A stretch of 64,000 nucleotides of DNA from Acidobacteriota bacterium (lineage in GTDB: Bacteria > Acidobacteriota > Terriglobia > Acidiferrales > UBA7541). The translations under genes were made by a program, and so were the position numbers. Below the pieces are notes generated by a model, which worked only from the letters and a program-made list of their open reading frames with translations, made no database searches and was not told the origin of the DNA. Shown here piece by piece: positions 8,096-51,520 of this stretch. The stretch covers positions 1-64,000 of the forward strand of contig QHYS01000063.1 in assembly GCA_003223325.1 (NCBI GenBank). Direction: 5' to 3'. Each line of letters opens with the position of its first letter. Position 1 is the stretch's first letter.

Positions 8096-8524
8096 CTAAC
8101 GCCTCTTGGCTACGTCCTGCCTACGGTCGCGACGATCCTGTCGTAGATCCTTACCATCGTGGTGGATGTCGCGCCTGTCCTGGTTGCGATCCAACACATC
8201 GTGGTGCATGTCCCGCTTGTCGGCGCGAATATCCTTTCGATCCGCCCTCACTTGGGAGCTATTGGCGCCGAACTGAGATTTGTCTTGCTGGAGCGGGCTT
8301 CGATCCGAGCGAATATCGCGTCGGTCTCGGCGAATATCGCGGTTATCCGTGTGGCGATCGCGCGCATCCTGCCGAACATCCCGCCGGTCCTGCCGGATAT
8401 CGTGCGTGTCGCTGCGCACATCGCCCGGCTCGGCGCCGCTTGAATTCTGCGCCCACCCACTCGCCGCCACGAGGCCGACGATCGCGAACACACTAAGGCA
8501 CATTTTCATCGTCATGAGCTTCAC
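8096..8524 (-). CDS. Exported protein made of 7-residue charged repeats
   Basis: I recognise no named family. The start is a GTG preceded by AAGGAGG at ideal spacing, which removes 16 residues from the ORF track and leaves a clean signal peptide (hydrophobic CLSVFAIVGLVAASGWAQ, probable cleavage after AQ or nearby). The mature part is about 15 consecutive heptads with consensus D-[IV]-R-x-D-R-R, for example DIRQDRR, DVRQDAR, DIRRDRR, DIRADKR, DLRQDRR. The fifth-position aspartate is almost invariant and histidines appear in several units (DMHHDVL, DIHHDGK). The protein is extremely rich in Asp and Arg. A helical rod, a coiled coil, or a periplasmic metal or polyanion binder are all possible; no function can be assigned. 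Confidence 0.75.
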   Translation of the reverse strand: MKLMTMKMCLSVFAIVGLVAASGWAQNSSGAEPGDVRSDTHDIRQDRRDVRQDARDRHTDNRDIRRDRRDIRSDRSPLQQDKSQFGANSSQVRADRKDIRADKRDMHHDVLDRNQDRRDIHHDGKDLRQDRRDRRQDVAKRR

Positions 8525-8659
8525 GATTTCCTCCTTTAAAGCGACGGAACCAGCTTGCACTAGGAAAAACACAGCTGTGGCTGAAAAGTTGCGCTGTGTA
8601 CCAGGTTGTTCGTGGTGCGAGCGTACTAGCGGCCGGCGCTTCTGGTGCGGCAGTTTCCC

Positions 8660-9044
8660 TTAAGATCCGCCGTCTTGTTTTACTTTTTCCGGCAGGGCGT
8701 GCAGGACAGAATCGAGAACCCCATTCACAAATCCTGCTGCCTCTTCGGAAGAAAAGGTCTTGGCCAGCTCCACGGCTTCATTTACCACCACTTTGCGCGG
8801 CGCCTTGTCTGAGCGCAGTTCGTACACGCCTAGGCGCAGGATGGCGCGATCGATCAGCGCGATCCGTTCCAGGCGCCAGTTTTCCGTGTGCGCCGAAACC
8901 ACAACGTCGAGTTCCGCGGCGCTTTTTACGACCCCCTCAAAGAGCTCGTTGGCAAAGGCCCGAGTGCTCTTCTCCGCCCGAGCAATGCGCCAAAAGCCCC
9001 AGCATCTGCAGCGCGTACTGTCGGGCCTTATGCCTCTGCGGCAT
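8660..9044 (-). pseudogene. nusB: nusB, disrupted by internal deletion and frameshift
   Basis: NusB joins the antitermination complex on rRNA operons. The expected N-terminus MPQRHKARQYALQML is read from an ATG two bases after the ribH stop, then the frame runs to an early stop. The rest of NusB continues in another frame (GFWRIARAEKSTRAFANELF, then the conserved ENWRLERIALIDRAILRLGVYEL and EAVELAKTFSSEEAAGFVNGVLD). The segment is 385 bases, not a multiple of three, and about 20 residues between ALQML and FWR are missing compared with the family. Both halves are well conserved, so the lesion is recent or an assembly error. Position after ribH is the usual one. Confidence 0.85.
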
Positions 9045-9045
9045 T

Positions 9046-9570
9046 TTAGTGGCGCTTTCGCATGCGGACGGCAGAAAGGCGAGCGGCCGCCCGAAGCTGG
9101 CTCGATAGACGCGCCATCTCCAGCGCCGCTAGCCCTGCCTCATAACCCTTGTTCCCGCTCTTCAGCCCCGCTCGGTCGATGGCCTGCTCAAGCGTGTCGC
9201 AAGTCAGCACGCAAAAGATGATCGGCACGCCGGTATCCATTTGCGCGAGTTGTACGCCGCGCGCCGCCTCCGTGGCGACGTAATCAAAATGCGCCGTCTC
9301 GCCGCGCAGCACGCAACCGATGGCTATGATGGCGTCGTAACGCTGCGCCAGCGCCATCTTCTTGGCCGCCAGCGGAATTTCAAACGAGCCCGGCACGCGC
9401 ACAAGGTCGGTTTGTTCCGCGGATGCACCGCCCTTCTCCAGGGCCTCCATGGCGCCGGCCAGCAGGCGCTCGGTGATGAAGCTATTGAACCGGCTCACCA
9501 CTAAGCCGAAGCGCATTCCTGATGCATCCAACGAACCGCGAATCTCATGGGGCTGAAAATCGTCACTCAT
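9046..9570 (-). CDS. ribH: 6,7-dimethyl-8-ribityllumazine synthase
   Basis: Condenses the ribityl-aminouracil with dihydroxybutanone phosphate in the penultimate step of riboflavin synthesis; the enzyme normally forms 60-mer or pentamer shells. Motifs are FGLVVSRFNSFITERLLAGA, RVPGSFEIPLAAKKMA, the catalytic histidine in RGETAHFDYV, and GVPIIFCVLTCDTLEQAIDRAG. The C-terminus carries the usual KGYEAGLAALEMA segment plus a basic tail. It is 174 residues, slightly long. It follows the enoyl-CoA hydratase gene and precedes nusB, the common ribH-nusB pairing. No other rib genes are in the window. Confidence 0.95.
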   Translation of the reverse strand: MSDDFQPHEIRGSLDASGMRFGLVVSRFNSFITERLLAGAMEALEKGGASAEQTDLVRVPGSFEIPLAAKKMALAQRYDAIIAIGCVLRGETAHFDYVATEAARGVQLAQMDTGVPIIFCVLTCDTLEQAIDRAGLKSGNKGYEAGLAALEMARLSSQLRAAARLSAVRMRKRH

Positions 9571-15999: not shown

Positions 16000-17385
16000 T
16001 CACCTCTCTCCTGTTTCCCGCTCCGGGACTTCTCTCTCTTTCACTTCGGCGCTGAAGCGGCCGCGCGCGAGTCGTACGCGAATGCGATCGCCGAACGCCA
16101 CCTGATCCGCGGAGTGCACGACGCGGCCGGCCGCGTCATAGCAAATCGCGTAACCTCGCTCCAACACACGCAGAGGGCTGCGCTCTTCGAGCTGCACAAG
16201 CAATTTTTCGAGGCGCTGACCTTTTTCCGTGAGCGTGCGGCTCACGCGGACGCCGAGCGCGGCGGTGCGCTGGTCAAGGCGCACGGCCGCCGCTCTCAAA
16301 CGCGCCCGAAAATCGACGGTAGCGAGGCGCAACACCGCCGCTTCAAAACGCCGCTCGAGCGCTTCCAACCGGCCGCGAAGCGCGCCGCTAAGCCGTGCGC
16401 AGAGCTCGTCGGTATGCTGGCGCCTGCGGCGCAGCGCATCCTCCAAGCGCCGGGCGGCGCGATGCAGATCGAGTTCGCGGAGTTTGTGACTGGCCTGAAG
16501 CATACGATAGCGCAGCAGCTGCGCGATTTTCTCGCGCAGGTCGCAGAGCTGGCCGTCGAATTCCTGCCGCGTGCGGACGACCATTTCGGCCGCAACGGAA
16601 GGCGTCGACGCGCGCATATCGGCGGCGAAATCCGCGATGGTGAAATCGGTCTCGTGGCCGATGCCGGCGATAATGGGAATCGTGCACGCCACAATCGCCC
16701 GCGCCACAAGCTCTTCGTTGAAGACCCACAAATCCTCGAGCGACCCGCCGCCGCGCGCGAGAATAAGAACGTCGGCGAGCTGTTTGCGGTCGAAGTAGCG
16801 AATGGCCTGCACGACTTCGCTGGCCGCGCCTTCACCCTGCACGCGCACGGGATAAAGGACAATGTGCAGGTTCGGGAAGCGCCGCTGCAGGATGCGCACG
16901 ATATCGCGTACCGCGGCGCCGCGCGGCGAAGTAATCAGTCCCACGCACTGCGGCAGCACGGGAAGCGGTTTTTTCCGCCCGGGATCAAACAGGCCCTCAG
17001 CGTCGAGGCGCTTTTTCAGTTGCTCGAAGGCGAGCTGCAGAGCGCCCAAGCCGACCGGCTCCACGTGTTCGACATAAAATTGGTATTGACCGCGCGATTC
17101 GTAGACGCTGATGGAGCCGCGCACGGTCACATGCAGGCCGTCTTCGGGACGAAATTTCAGGCGCGCCAGCTGCGTGCGAAAACAGACGCAACGCACCTGC
17201 GCGTGATTGTCCTTGAGCGTGAAGTAGAGGTGGCCGGATTGCGCTGCGTGCGCGTTGGAGACCTCGCCCTCGACGAAAACGTCGGTGAACTCGCCAGCGA
17301 GCAGATCGCGGATGCGCGCGGTGAGATCGCTTACCGACCAGACCGCGCGACGCGGCATGAGCGGAAGCTGAAAGGGTTTTGCCAT
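16000..17385 (-). CDS. xseA: Exodeoxyribonuclease VII large subunit
   Basis: Large subunit of the single-strand exonuclease used in DNA repair. The N-terminal OB-fold region reads VWSVSDLTARIRDLL...VFVEGEVSN, followed by SGHLYFTLKD; the catalytic domain carries GLITSPRGAAVRDI and ARGGGSLEDLWVFNEE, then GIGHETDFTIADFAADMRASTPSVAAE; the last 200 residues are arginine-rich and probably coiled coil. Length of 461 is typical. The small subunit gene xseB is not adjacent. The opposite strand carries a 426-residue ORF that is only a shadow of this high-GC gene. Confidence 0.95.
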   Translation of the reverse strand: MAKPFQLPLMPRRAVWSVSDLTARIRDLLAGEFTDVFVEGEVSNAHAAQSGHLYFTLKDNHAQVRCVCFRTQLARLKFRPEDGLHVTVRGSISVYESRGQYQFYVEHVEPVGLGALQLAFEQLKKRLDAEGLFDPGRKKPLPVLPQCVGLITSPRGAAVRDIVRILQRRFPNLHIVLYPVRVQGEGAASEVVQAIRYFDRKQLADVLILARGGGSLEDLWVFNEELVARAIVACTIPIIAGIGHETDFTIADFAADMRASTPSVAAEMVVRTRQEFDGQLCDLREKIAQLLRYRMLQASHKLRELDLHRAARRLEDALRRRRQHTDELCARLSGALRGRLEALERRFEAAVLRLATVDFRARLRAAAVRLDQRTAALGVRVSRTLTEKGQRLEKLLVQLEERSPLRVLERGYAICYDAAGRVVHSADQVAFGDRIRVRLARGRFSAEVKEREVPERETGER

Positions 17386-18497: not shown

Positions 18498-18821
18498 TTG
18501 GAGCAAATGCAGGCTATTTTGAGAGCCCTCGCGGAGCCGCGCCGCGTCGCCATCCTCAAGTTGGTTCGCTCAAGGGAATTGCGCGCGGGAGAGATTTCCC
18601 GGCATTTTCGAACTACGCGGCCCGCTATCTCTCAACATTTGCGAGTGCTCATCAAGGCCGGATTGCTGACAGAACGGAGGGATGGCACGCGGCGGCTTTA
18701 TCGCATCTGTCCAGAGGGCTTTGCACAATTGCGGAGTTTTCTCGAAACATTCTGGGATGAGAAGCTGGCCAAGCTGAAGTCGGCGCCAGAGGGGGAGATG
18801 ACGGAAACCCTTGGCCTCTGA
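18498..18821 (+). CDS. ArsR-family winged-helix transcription regulator
   Basis: A 107-residue helix-turn-helix repressor-type protein. The family signature is clear: ILRALAEPRRVAILKLV, then ELRAGEISRHFRTTRPAISQHLRVLIKAGLLTERRDGTRRLY, the recognition helix and wing. The metal-binding ELCVCDL motif of metal sensors is absent, so it belongs with the non-metal group (SdpR-like) that pairs with AHSA1 proteins. The ORF starts with TTG after an AGAGGA; an ATG three codons on is also possible. Its end overlaps the TTG start of the next AHSA1 gene. It probably binds the upstream dyad. Confidence 0.88.
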   Translation: MEQMQAILRALAEPRRVAILKLVRSRELRAGEISRHFRTTRPAISQHLRVLIKAGLLTERRDGTRRLYRICPEGFAQLRSFLETFWDEKLAKLKSAPEGEMTETLGL

Positions 18822-19264
18822 TCCCATCGTCAAGGAAATCTACATTGAGGCGCCACCTTCGGTAGTCTTCATGTTTCTTACCGATCCCCTAAAGATGCTT
18901 CGCTGGATGAGAATTCGCGCCGAAATCGACCCGAAACCCGGCGGAATTTATCGCTTAGCTAGATCCAAATGGCCGAGACATAATTCGGAGCGAATATGTC
19001 GAGATCGTAGCTGACTCGCGCGTGGTGTTCACCTGGGGCTTCGAAGGGGGCGGCTATAGCGTGGCGGAAGGATCGAGTCGGGTGGAAATTGATCTGAAGC
19101 CAGAAGGTAAAGGCACGCGGCTTCGGCTGACCCATTGTGAGCTGCCTCCAGAAGCCCACGAACGACACGATTCCGGATGGAGTCACTATCTGGGCCGCCT
19201 GAAGACAGTCTCCGAAGGCGGCGAGTCGGATCCGATGGCCAACCCGAGCGTGCGCCACGGCTGA
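18811..19264 (+). pseudogene. AHSA1/SRPBCC-domain gene broken by a 4-base insertion
   Basis: The N-terminal part (DPIVKEIYIEAPPSVVFMFLTDPLKMLRWM...) and the C-terminal part (VVFTWGFEGGGY...GTRLRLTHCELPPEA...GWSHYLGRLK) of one START-fold protein are read in two frames. The join is at about 18956: TATCGCTTAGCTAGATCC should read TATCGCTTAGATCC (YRLDPNGRDIIRSEYVEIVADSR), so an extra four bases, GCTA or an equivalent, shift the frame. Restoring it gives one uninterrupted protein of about 150 residues. Start is TTG overlapping the arsR stop region. A sequencing error must be excluded. Confidence 0.82.
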
Positions 19265-20898: not shown

Positions 20899-21783
20899 TC
20901 AGCGGGCCACCGATTTGCTGAGCGCGGCGGCCAGAGTCTGGCCGATATCGGCTGGACTCTGCACGCAATGGATTCCCGCGGCGGCCATGACTTCGTATTT
21001 TTCTTTTGCCGTGCCGCTGCCCCCACTGATGATGGCGCCGGCATGACCCATGCGCCGGCCGGGCGGTGCAGTCTGCCCGGCGATGAAGCCGACCACCGGC
21101 TTGCGCACATGGCCGCGAATGAATTCCGCGGCCTGCTGCTCGGCATTGCCTCCGATCTCGCCGATCATGACGATGGCGTGCGTATCGGGATCATCGTTGA
21201 AGAGTCGCATGGCATCGAGGAATGAAGTGCCGATGATGGGGTCGCCGCCAATGCCGATGCACGTGGATTGGCCGATGCCCAGATGCGTGAGCTGACCGAC
21301 GGCTTCGTAGGTCAGGGTACCGCTACGGCTGACGACGCCGACGTGGCCTTCGCGGTGAATCTGTCCGGGCATGATGCCGATTTTGCATTTGCCCGGCGAG
21401 ATGATGCCCGGGCAATTGGGCCCGATAAGCCGAGTCCGGCTGCCACGAAGCGCGGCGGCCACGCGAACCATATCGAGTGTGGGAACGCCTTCGGTGATGC
21501 AGACGACCAGCGGCAGACCGGCGTCAATGGCCTCAAGCATGGCGTCGGCGGCAAACGGCGGGGGCACGAAAATCGCGGCGGCATTGGCTTGAGTTGCGCG
21601 GACGGTTTCGGCGACGGTATTGAAAACCGGCACATCGTTATGCAACGTGCCGCCCTTGCCCGGGGTGACTCCGGCAACCACTTTGGTGCCGTATGCGATC
21701 ATCTGGCTTGCGTGGAAGCCGCCTTCGCGGCCGGTGACACCCTGCACGATGACTCGGGTCATCTCGTTTACCAGAACGCTCAC
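20899..21783 (-). CDS. sucD: Succinyl-CoA synthetase (ADP-forming), alpha subunit
   Basis: Alpha subunit of the TCA-cycle enzyme that couples succinyl-CoA cleavage to NTP formation. The CoA-binding [19 protein letters not shown], the [12 protein letters not shown] loop, and the phospho-histidine segment [14 protein letters not shown] are present. Length of 294 is normal. The GTG start overlaps the sucC stop (GTGA) with GGAGGTG upstream; an ATG seven codons later is an alternative start. It is coupled to sucC. Confidence 0.96.
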
Positions 21784-22922
21784 CGCGCACCTCCGGCGAG
21801 GCGCACGGCTTTCTCCGCGCCATCTTTCATGTTTTCGCCGATGGTGAAGTTGAGCCCGGAGTCGCGCAGAATCTGGCGGCCCTGCTCGACGTTGGTGCCT
21901 TCCATACGCACGACCACAGGCAGCTTCAATTGCAACTCGCGCGCCGCGGCGACCACGCCCGTTGCCAGCACATCACAGCGCAGGATGCCTCCGAAAATGT
22001 TGATGAAAACGCTGCGGACTTCCTTGTCGCTCGTCAGGATTTTGAAGGCGTTTTTCACCTGGTCGGCGGAAGCGCCGCCGCCCACGTCGAGAAAGTTCGC
22101 CGGAGCGCCGCCGGCGAGCTTGATGATGTCCATGGTGGCCATGGCGAGGCCCGCGCCATTGACCATGCAACCGACGGTACCGTCAAGCTTGATGTAGTTA
22201 AGCTTGTAATTCGAGGCTTCCACTTCGAGCGGGTCTTCTTCGTTGTGGCGATAGAGTGCGTTATCGTCGAAATTCATCTTGGCGTCGAGCGCGATCAGCC
22301 GGCCATCGTCGGTAACCACGAGTGGATTGATTTCCGCGAGCGAGGCGTCTGTTTCGATGAAGGCACGATAGAGAGATTGTAGAAAAGGCACGGCGGCCTG
22401 CGCCAGTTCGGCGGTCAGGCCGAGGCTGAAAGCGAGTTTGCGGGCGATGTATGGTTGAAGACCGACGGCCGGGCCGATCGTTTCGCTCAGAATGGCCGCG
22501 GGATTCTCCCTGGCGACTTCTTCGATTTCCATGCCGCCGGCGGCGCTGCCCAGGACGACCGGAGCTTCGACGGCACGATCCACAAGGACGCTGAGGTACA
22601 GCTCGTGCTTGATGTCGAGTCCCTCTTCGACCAGCAGGCGGCGCACGATGCGGCCGCCGGGGCAGGTCTGCGGCGTGATCAGGTTCATGCCTAGAATTTT
22701 GGAGGCGAGCTTCGCGGCTTCGTCAGCGGAACGCGCCAGCTTCACGCCGCCACCTTTGCCTCGCCCCCCGGCGTGGATTTGCGCTTTCACCACCACGACA
22801 GGCACGCCGAGCTTCTGCGCCACTTTGCGCGCGTCCTCGGCGGTGGTCACCATTTCGCCGCGCGGCGTGGGAACGCCGAACCGACGGAAAATTTCCTTAG
22901 CTTGATACTCGTGGATTTTCAT
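21780..22922 (-). CDS. sucC: Succinyl-CoA synthetase (ADP-forming), beta subunit
   Basis: Nucleotide- and succinate-binding ATP-grasp subunit. [22 protein letters not shown] at the N-terminus, [52 protein letters not shown] and the C-terminal [16 protein letters not shown] segment are all family signatures. Length is 380 residues. It is the first gene of the sucC-sucD pair and is divergent from trpD across a 267-base gap. Confidence 0.97.
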
Positions 22923-33729: not shown

Positions 33730-35082
33730 TCATTGCGCGGCACTCACAGGCAAATTGTACAAAAAGATGAAGCGCAACTCGATAAAGGGTCCGCTGAAGG
33801 CCGCAGGCAGAGGTTCAAAGGGAGAAGAAGCGCGGATCGCGGAGTATGCGGCGCGATCGAGCGGTTCCTTCCCTGAAGAGGACATCAACTGCGGCTCGGC
33901 GTCCGGGACGGCGCCGTTGGTCATAATTCGGAATTGCAGGACCACGCGGCCCTTCTCACCCAGGTACACCGATTCTGGCATCACGGAATACCAGTTGCGT
34001 TTGACGCTAGCAACCACGCGCGCCAGATAATCGTTGAAGTCGACTCCTTCGGTCGGCGTGAGCAACTGCACGGCGCCGTAACCCTCGCCCCCTCCTCCGC
34101 CGCCGCCCCCATAGCCCAGTGGACCGCCGCCGGGTATGCGTCCGCCGAACGCTTCCATCCCATTGTTGGAGCTTTGGCGCGACTGCTGCGCCGACTGTTC
34201 AAGCGTGCGCCCGGGCGAACTGACTTGCGGAAGAATGAGGCGATTGGGGGCCTGGGGTTGAGGCTGGGGCTTCGGCGCATCGACACGAGAATACGGCGGC
34301 GTCTGCGGTTGCGGCTTGGGCGCTACGGGGAGCTCTGGCGCCGGCTCGGCGGGCGTATCGCGTAGCACGCGGTCCGGCTCCTTTGGCGCAGGCACCGGTT
34401 GAGGAACAACCGGCGGCGCCATCTGGCGCAAGATACGTGGATCGATGCGCATTTGCGGGCTGCGCGGCGGCGGTGGCGTCGGCGGCAAACCGCGCACGTC
34501 CGGAGGCATATAGATGAAATTGAGTTGCTGCCGCGCCAGATCGATTTGCGATTGTGTAGGCGGATGATAGGGAAAGAGCTTGGTCTGCAGCAGAAGAAAA
34601 CTGATGAACAGGATGTGAAAAGCGATCGAGCCGGAGCGGGCGATCCAGTTCCAATCTCGCGGTGGAGTTTCCACGGGTGCCACCATGAGATTGACGTCAC
34701 CCGTGGTGAGAACGTCGGGTTTGAGAACTTCCGGCAGTTCGAAGGGGGAGACGAGCCCTTTTGGTTCGAGTTCGACCACGGGCAACGCCGGAGGCACGGT
34801 GACTCTGTAATCGAGCACGGTAACTGGCGCGTATTCGGGATGGACCATCGCAGGATCGAGTGGCATCGCCGGAGTATCTCGGGGAACGAGGACGCGCGAG
34901 GCGAGCACGTCCAGTGGCAGGTGCGCAGGAATGGAGCTGTGCGTTTGCAGTTCCGAGCGCGGCAGATTCGCGGCTACGACCGTGCGTTCATCGAGCAGAG
35001 TCGTCAGGCGGCGCGGAGGGGCCGCATCCGCTTTCTCGGTTGCGGGGCGCACGTCACGCGGAACTAGACTCCTTGAAATCAT
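33730..35082 (-). CDS. TonB-like energy-transducing protein with long cytoplasmic region
   Basis: A 450-residue protein. Residues 1-150 are soluble and Pro/Val-rich with a repeated LVPRD motif; a single transmembrane helix follows at about 151-170 (GSIAFHILFISFLLLQTKLF). Then comes a Pro-rich spacer of about 130 residues, a Gly-run and a C-terminal TonB domain (YLARVVASVKRNWYSVMP, GRVVLQFRIMTNG, PLDRAAYSAIRASSPFEPLP). I use the ATG whose A is the last base of the upstream stop (TGATG). No ExbB/ExbD is adjacent. A canonical TonB has its helix near residue 10-30, so the long cytoplasmic head is unusual. It is coupled to the lipid A genes. Confidence 0.85.
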   Translation of the reverse strand: MISRSLVPRDVRPATEKADAAPPRRLTTLLDERTVVAANLPRSELQTHSSIPAHLPLDVLASRVLVPRDTPAMPLDPAMVHPEYAPVTVLDYRVTVPPALPVVELEPKGLVSPFELPEVLKPDVLTTGDVNLMVAPVETPPRDWNWIARSGSIAFHILFISFLLLQTKLFPYHPPTQSQIDLARQQLNFIYMPPDVRGLPPTPPPPRSPQMRIDPRILRQMAPPVVPQPVPAPKEPDRVLRDTPAEPAPELPVAPKPQPQTPPYSRVDAPKPQPQPQAPNRLILPQVSSPGRTLEQSAQQSRQSSNNGMEAFGGRIPGGGPLGYGGGGGGGGEGYGAVQLLTPTEGVDFNDYLARVVASVKRNWYSVMPESVYLGEKGRVVLQFRIMTNGAVPDAEPQLMSSSGKEPLDRAAYSAIRASSPFEPLPAAFSGPFIELRFIFLYNLPVSAAQ

Positions 35083-48817: not shown

Positions 48818-51520
48818 ATGAACCGAATTTCCATCGGTGCCAGACTGGCCGTCGCTTTTAGTCTTGTCCTCTCGATTCTTATTGGTGTCGGTTGGTCAGG
48901 GCTCAACCGCATGGCGCGAATCAACGCCGACCTCAACGACATCAATTACCGACGCTGGGCTAAGGTTCAATTGGCGCAACAGGCCACCACCTATTCCAAT
49001 TTGAACAATCGGCTCCTGCAAGGAGCGATTCTCTCCGGACGGCAGGAGGAGGTCGCGTCTCTTCTGAACCAGCGGGACCTCAACGTCCAGCACATCACGG
49101 ACATCTTCCAGACATTGAGTAAGGGAATTGAATCCGCGACGGAAAGAGAGCTCTTGCAGCAACTCGATCAGCAGAGGGCCGCCACGGCAGATGGCATCGC
49201 CCGCATAACCGACCTGCTGAAGGCAGGTAAATTCCAGCAAGCAAGAGTAACGATGGCGAGCGATGTGATTCTTCAAATCGATGCTCTGCATGACGCTTGG
49301 AATGCTTTCACGCGGTTCGAAGAGCTCCAGATGCAGCAGGCTCGCGATCAAAGCCAGGCAAACTACGCCAAAGCCCGCCGCCTCACCACTTGGTTGATCC
49401 TGTTTGCGTTCCTGGCCGCTGCGGCCATTGGCACCTTTGTGACACGTACCATGGTGCGAGAAGTGGAACAACGCGAGCGCACCAAGCGGGAGGCTCGCAA
49501 GCTCAGCGATGATTTGGAAAAGAAGGTAGCCGAGCGCACCGAGGAACTGGCGCGGGCCATTCGGCACCTCGAAAGCGAAGCGACCGAGCGAAGGCGCAAG
49601 GAGGAGGATCTTCGGCGCTTGGCGGCAATTGTGGAGTGTTCCGAAGACGCCATCATCGCCGCCGACCTTGACGGCAAGATCACCGACTGGAACGCGGGGG
49701 CGGAGAAAATGTTCGGCTACTCTCGGGCGGAGGCGGCCGGGATGCCCGTTTCGATCATCGCTCCGGCAGAGCGACGACGCGAGCATTTAGATATTCTGGC
49801 CAGGATTCGTAAAGGCGCTGGGATCATGAATCAGGAGACCGTGCGCATCAAGCAGGATGGCAAACCTGTGCACGTTTCGCTCACAGTTTCGCCGATACGA
49901 AATCAAGCCGGACGCCTCACCGGCTCCGCTGCCATCGTGCGGGATATTACCGAACGGATTGAGATGGAGGCGGCACTGCGCCGATCCGAGACGAATTTCC
50001 GCTCGGTTATCGAGAACTCTCCTTACGGCGCTCTTCGAACCTTGCCTGACGGCCGGATCCTGCTTGCCAATCCTGCAGCGATCAGGATGCTCGGCTATAC
50101 CTTCGAAAGCGACGTTCTCAGCCTGAATATGGCCACGGACATCTATCGAAATCATGCCGATCGCGCGCGACTCATCGAACAATCACGCCATGCCGAGTAT
50201 CTCAAAGACCTCGAGGTGGAGTGGAAACACAGAAACGGATCGCCAATCATGGTGCGTTTCAGCAGTCATATCGTGAAAAATCAATCCGGCGAGATAGACC
50301 ATTTCGATCTGATGGTGCAGGACATCACCAAGCAACGCAACCTCGAGGATCAGTTGCGGCAAGCGCAAAAGATGGAAGCGATCGGACGGCTGGCCGGCGG
50401 CGTGGCCCACGACTTCAACAATCTGCTTGGAGTCATCATCGGTTATAGCGAGTTGGCTCTAGACCAAATCGAGCCTGGGAGTGCCGTGCGCGGTCAAGTG
50501 GAGCAGATCCGCAAAGCAGGCGAACGGGCCAGCGCCCTCACCCGCCAACTCCTGGCGTTTAGCCGGCAGCAAGTGCTCGACACCAAGACGCTCAATGTTA
50601 ATGGCATCATTTCCGATATGGCCCAGATGCTCCTCCGCTTGATCGGCGAGGATATTGAACTGCAAACCAAACTGGACTCGGAGCTGCATGCTATCCGGGG
50701 CGATCAAGGACAGATCGAGCAGGTCATCCTGAATCTCGCGGTCAACGCACGCGACGCCATGCCCCACGGCGGCAAGTTGATGATCGAAACGCGCAATGTG
50801 AGGGTGGAGGAGGAAGAGCCCCACCGGCACACGCCCATGACGCCCGGCGATTACATCCTGTTGACCATCTCCGATACGGGCGTGGGGATGGACGCCGAAA
50901 CGCAAGCTCACATCTTCGAGCCCTTCTTCACAACCAAAGCTCAGGGAAAGGGTACAGGCCTGGGTCTAGCCACCGTTTATGGTGTGGTGAAGCAAAGTGG
51001 AGGCTACATTTGGGTGTACAGCGAGCCCGGAGTAGGCGCGACATTCAAGCTATACCTACCGCGGGTGCTCGACGAGTCTCAAGCCAGCCGACCTCCCGAT
51101 ATGGGCAATTCTCACCAAGCCACAGCGACGGTTTTGGTCGTTGAGGACGAGGCATCCCTTAGAACTTTTACCTGCACGTTACTGAAGAACAGTGGTTACA
51201 CAGTGCTGGAGGCGGGGGACGGCGACGAAGCCCTCACTTTGGCGGGGCAATACAAGCCGCCTATCCATCTTCTACTGACGGACATGATCATGCCCGGTAT
51301 GAATGGACCGGCTGTGGCGGGAAAGCTTGCTTCGTTGCACCCCGAAGCCAAGGTGCTGTTCATGTCCGGTTACACGGGGTTCGTGAGCCGGGGGCTGATC
51401 GATCCTCACGCTGTTCTGGTGTCGAAGCCGTTTACCCGCGAGGAATTGCTCCGCAAAATCGAGCAGGTATTGGGCCAGCGCACGACCGCCCCTACAAATG
51501 GGAGCACGGTGCGTGTCTGA
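48818..51520 (+). CDS. Hybrid sensor histidine kinase (4HB sensor, PAS-PAS, HisKA, HATPase, receiver)
   Basis: A 900-residue membrane kinase. Two helices (about 8-28 and 190-212) bracket a four-helix-bundle periplasmic sensor; two PAS domains follow (about 265-385 and 390-515). The H-box is GRLAGGVAHDFNNLLG, the N-box NLAVNARDAMPHG, G-boxes DTGVGM and GTGLGLATVYG, and the C-terminal receiver has the phospho-acceptor in LLLTDMIMPGMNG plus the lysine in VSKPF. No DNA-binding response regulator or output gene is next to it, so it is an orphan. The signal and downstream partner are unknown. Confidence 0.93.
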   Translation: MNRISIGARLAVAFSLVLSILIGVGWSGLNRMARINADLNDINYRRWAKVQLAQQATTYSNLNNRLLQGAILSGRQEEVASLLNQRDLNVQHITDIFQTLSKGIESATERELLQQLDQQRAATADGIARITDLLKAGKFQQARVTMASDVILQIDALHDAWNAFTRFEELQMQQARDQSQANYAKARRLTTWLILFAFLAAAAIGTFVTRTMVREVEQRERTKREARKLSDDLEKKVAERTEELARAIRHLESEATERRRKEEDLRRLAAIVECSEDAIIAADLDGKITDWNAGAEKMFGYSRAEAAGMPVSIIAPAERRREHLDILARIRKGAGIMNQETVRIKQDGKPVHVSLTVSPIRNQAGRLTGSAAIVRDITERIEMEAALRRSETNFRSVIENSPYGALRTLPDGRILLANPAAIRMLGYTFESDVLSLNMATDIYRNHADRARLIEQSRHAEYLKDLEVEWKHRNGSPIMVRFSSHIVKNQSGEIDHFDLMVQDITKQRNLEDQLRQAQKMEAIGRLAGGVAHDFNNLLGVIIGYSELALDQIEPGSAVRGQVEQIRKAGERASALTRQLLAFSRQQVLDTKTLNVNGIISDMAQMLLRLIGEDIELQTKLDSELHAIRGDQGQIEQVILNLAVNARDAMPHGGKLMIETRNVRVEEEEPHRHTPMTPGDYILLTISDTGVGMDAETQAHIFEPFFTTKAQGKGTGLGLATVYGVVKQSGGYIWVYSEPGVGATFKLYLPRVLDESQASRPPDMGNSHQATATVLVVEDEASLRTFTCTLLKNSGYTVLEAGDGDEALTLAGQYKPPIHLLLTDMIMPGMNGPAVAGKLASLHPEAKVLFMSGYTGFVSRGLIDPHAVLVSKPFTREELLRKIEQVLGQRTTAPTNGSTVRV

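Follow-up and report, generated by a model that had tools for sequence, protein, structure and literature searches.

The nusB locus

The DNA analyzed here, hereafter the window, is the 64,000-base stretch formed by bases 1-64000 of contig C6 in G000, a 6.10 Mb draft genome of 377 contigs that is 98.4% complete and appears to be metagenome-derived. On the minus strand, an intact 174-aa ORF, which we take from its family to be ribH, lies directly upstream of nusB in the normal ribH-nusB order, and nusB itself is divided between two frames (Table 1). The initial annotation had placed the first 15 NusB residues in one frame and the rest of the protein in another, and this arrangement is indeed what is found: MPQRHKARQYALQML stands in the original frame and is followed, across the junction sequence GCTGGGGCTTTTGGCGC, by FWRIARAEK... 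in the other. Read from its ATG, the start frame hits a stop after 35 codons, and no single ORF at the locus spans the whole NusB fold (about 130-145 aa). The 3' part matches the Pfam NusB profile (PF01029) over profile positions 40-132 with an E-value of 8.8e-30 and 106 bits, a score that passes the curated cut-off of 23.1 and is far above chance.

Table 1. Coordinates of genes, junctions, and assembly breaks discussed in the text
Feature	Location	Strand	Description
nusB 5' piece	window 9000..9044	-	start codon ATG and the next 14 codons, original frame; aligned with the intact gene from three congeners
nusB junction	window 8999..9000		N-free; lacks 44 bases found in congeners; exact position uncertain by 1-2 bases
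nusB 3' piece	window 8660..8999	-	other frame, GFWRIARAEK... up to stop at 8660; PF01029 match
Presumed ribH (lumazine synthase)	window 9046..9570	-	intact ORF; aligned to congeners
Arg/Asp-rich repeat protein	window 8096..8572	-	158-aa ORF
AHSA1-like gene	window 18811..19261	+	frame break near 18957
sucC, window copy	window 21780..22922		contains the bases absent from G003
sucC, G003 copy	G003:C115 (piece L124), near 16187		263 bases absent
nusA break	G000:C189, about base 34,147 (piece L123 near 9147; L116 near 2539)		49 bases absent
TENA/THI-4 break	G000:C184, about base 49,180 (piece L132 near 9182)		62 bases absent
Short N runs	G000:C184, L133 at 13024 and 16948, L135 at 3885; G000:C45 (L114 at 1501)		one in valS, one in 16S rRNA gene

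Three genomes of the same genus encode intact NusB proteins of 143, 142, and 138 aa, and the window copy resembles these in its ribH neighbor, its N-terminal start, and its conserved C-terminal part, but differs from them in the absent bases and in not being covered by one frame. The alignments with G003 and with G001 give an identical loss of exactly 44 bases, or 14 codons plus 2 bases. An earlier estimate of about 20 missing residues, corresponding to 62-68 bases and a remainder of 2 on division by three, was thus correct in its remainder and too large in its size. The entire window, the nusB join included, is free of Ns.

One way to rescue a protein from this arrangement would be +1 ribosomal frameshifting at the junction, and inspection of the sequence indicates that a slip at CTT T, from zero-frame CTT TTG to TTT TGG, would join both frames and could yield a shorter NusB. 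Such a product would still be without about 14 residues of an N-terminal helical region present in every congener, and there is neither a conserved slippery site nor any relative with such an arrangement, so that we give this explanation practically no credence.

Two other features of the window were recorded in passing. Beside nusB is an ORF that consists mostly of repeated Arg/Asp-rich units (RDIRQDRRDVRQD...) and bears a possible signal peptide, and this protein occurs in G003 as well. In the AHSA1-like gene, 4 bases are inserted compared with G003, whose copy is intact (151 aa), making this another broken frame in the window besides nusB and one of another type.

nusB in the family, its partner factors, and selection

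If the deletion were genuine and recent, nusB would be a pseudogene in this strain, and rRNA antitermination would proceed without NusB at a growth penalty. The clean, N-free junction is in keeping with such an event, as is the content of the assembly, which was considered a possible source of another nusB copy but contains none. Apart from nusB, PF01029 matches only the N-terminal domain of an RsmB-type methyltransferase (461 aa, intact), and no part of the assembly matched a pattern representing the beginning of the absent nusB segment. Biology would also permit a real loss, as delta-nusB strains of Escherichia coli are in use and mutants of the gene show cold sensitivity (PMC4807359), implying that absence of the protein is survivable at the cost of cold sensitivity and 30S maturation defects. 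These null mutants were constructed or selected, however, whereas nothing seen here demonstrates that the organism of the window is without NusB.

The distribution of nusB in the family argues against a genuine deletion. With a full-length query, the gene was matched in 75 of 80 other family genomes, and it is full length in all of those matched except G034, where it meets a contig edge, and G011, where it is split by an N gap; no other resolvable nusB among the 80 is broken. A lineage-wide loss of nusB was likewise considered and rejected, given that the gene is intact throughout the family and the split in G011 reflects an N gap only. The partner factors tell against a real loss as well, in that nusA and rpsJ are found in G000 and a boxA-like element, GTTCTTTGACAACTGAA, is kept in the 16S leader, ahead of the 16S gene; NusB proteins characteristically bind boxA RNA jointly with NusE/S10.

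Purifying selection has acted on what remains of nusB in the window lineage, a point in favor of an assembly error. Relative to the state common to G001 and G003, this part has undergone 10.5 synonymous and 6.5 nonsynonymous changes, and a nonsynonymous share of 6-7 out of 17, against a neutral expectation of ~75%, rejects neutral evolution (p about 0.0006-0.003). The ratio of nonsynonymous to synonymous changes is ~7:10 in the window lineage versus 5:21 in the congeners, and while this somewhat higher share is what a short pseudogene phase would give, and as such counts against an assembly error, the excess is not significant (Fisher p 0.17). Relaxed selection following the break was not detected in the retained nusB, although a very recent break would leave no such signal.

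Breaks and gaps elsewhere in the assembly

To place the nusB junction in the context of the draft, approximately 144 kb of G000 (the window, C189, C161, and two pieces of C184) was compared with the matching DNA of G001 and G003, and 295 kb of G000 was scanned for Ns. Two further N-free losses are present in G000. The nusA gene is frame-broken by a loss of 49 bases just after the KH region, where G001, G003, and G015 are all intact, and a gene of the TENA/THI-4 family lacks 62 bases, placing it out of frame, while G001 and G003 are intact. At each of the three N-free losses (nusB, nusA, and TENA/THI-4), both congeners are intact and the junction is ambiguous by at most 2 bases.

N runs in G000 are as short as 2, and three of them could be calibrated against G001 and G003. 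In valS, which encodes valyl-tRNA synthetase, 16 Ns stand where both congeners have 36 bases, and two more runs in C184, of 8 and 20 Ns, represent 47 and 62 real bases, respectively, with the same value in both congeners. The N runs therefore fall short of the true length by 20 (16 Ns), 39 (8 Ns), and 42 bases (20 Ns). The true sizes of the N-bearing gaps (36, 47, and 62 bases) overlap fully with those of the N-free losses (44, 49, and 62 bases), and, apart from nusB, base loss of similar size thus occurs at five other places in G000 (36, 47, 49, 62, and 62 true bases). The breaks in valS, nusA, and TENA/THI-4 are all out of frame. As valS is an essential gene, the presence of an N gap within it implies that breaks in this assembly occur without regard to the importance of the gene. 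The assembly is not uniformly bad, as the S10-region ribosomal-protein genes that were checked are intact.

The coincidence of breaks in nusB and nusA might also be read as decay of the Nus system in this lineage, with nusB and the C-terminal helix-hairpin-helix region of NusA lost as linked functional losses, and an out-of-frame loss located directly behind the KH region of nusA, where G001, G003, and G015 are intact, is what such decay could produce. However, the unrelated TENA/THI-4 and valS genes have been struck likewise, the 3' part of nusA past the break is still recognizable in the shifted frame at 78% identity to G003, and the intact S10-region genes speak against it too. We consider this reading barely credible.

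The same comparisons weigh against a genuine nusB deletion, since losses of the same size are present at other joins in G000, among them N gaps whose lengths are demonstrably wrong. A real loss would have to coincide with artefacts of matching size and type at other places in this genome and retains only a slim chance.

The best explanation for the apparent deletion is instead an assembly artefact in which a scaffold gap was closed without Ns, to which we assign a probability of roughly 0.9. Two contigs would have been joined over an unsequenced stretch of ~44 bases inside nusB, the length of which the scaffolder would have underestimated, as it did elsewhere in G000; with the estimate dropping to zero or below, the contigs may simply have been butted together. 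With gap lengths understated by 20-42 bases, gaps that really span about 44-62 bases can be expected to receive estimates of zero or below in many cases and to vanish from the assembly. We infer that the nusB junction is itself such a scaffold join, at which reads would restore the segment, and the living organism most likely carries a normal, intact nusB beside ribH. The lack of Ns at the join weighs against this explanation, as does the survivability of NusB loss in E. coli. The suggestion in the initial annotation that the assembly might be wrong is strongly supported by the three calibrated gaps that are too short and the two further N-free, out-of-frame losses, and its headline that the nusB of the organism is broken is accordingly probably false.

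Two candidate causes of drop-out were considered and rejected. The missing segment is not hairpin-prone, as its folding is no stronger than that of shuffled sequences (z -0.4 to -1.3), and no long repeat of the sort liable to collapse in de Bruijn assembly was found at the junction, where at most 2 bases are ambiguous.

The congener drafts have losses of their own, amounting to 241, 248, 263, and about 283 bases in G003 and to 106 bases, and 103 with Ns, in G001. The 263-base loss in G003 falls in sucC, which encodes the beta subunit of succinyl-CoA ligase and retains these bases in the window. Two of the four broken genes in G003 and one of the two in G001 encode repeat proteins (PASTA, FG-GAP), and because such repeats can truly vary in length, the congener breaks serve as supporting evidence only.

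Implications for gene-loss claims

Pseudogenes made by assembly are well documented (Cooley and Wright 2024, PMC11017572), and the window nusB is similar to these in that a conserved gene looks frame-broken through a draft assembly. It differs in the likely step at which the error arose, which in the documented cases is a base or homopolymer error and here would be a wrong gap length at scaffold joins. At joins without Ns in G000, some 40-60 bases can go missing unnoticed and throw conserved genes out of frame, and claims of gene loss from this draft and those of its congeners consequently need read support. The sequence observation is real, the biological claim is unsupported, and nothing here is biologically novel; the finding is no discovery, and its value is cautionary. 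It is highly improbable that a free-living soil acidobacterium has truly lost both a working NusB and the C-terminal portion of NusA, keeping a boxA-like leader and making its rRNA without the standard Nus complex. If the loss of nusB were nevertheless true, the organism would offer a naturally occurring test of how a cell lives when NusB is absent.
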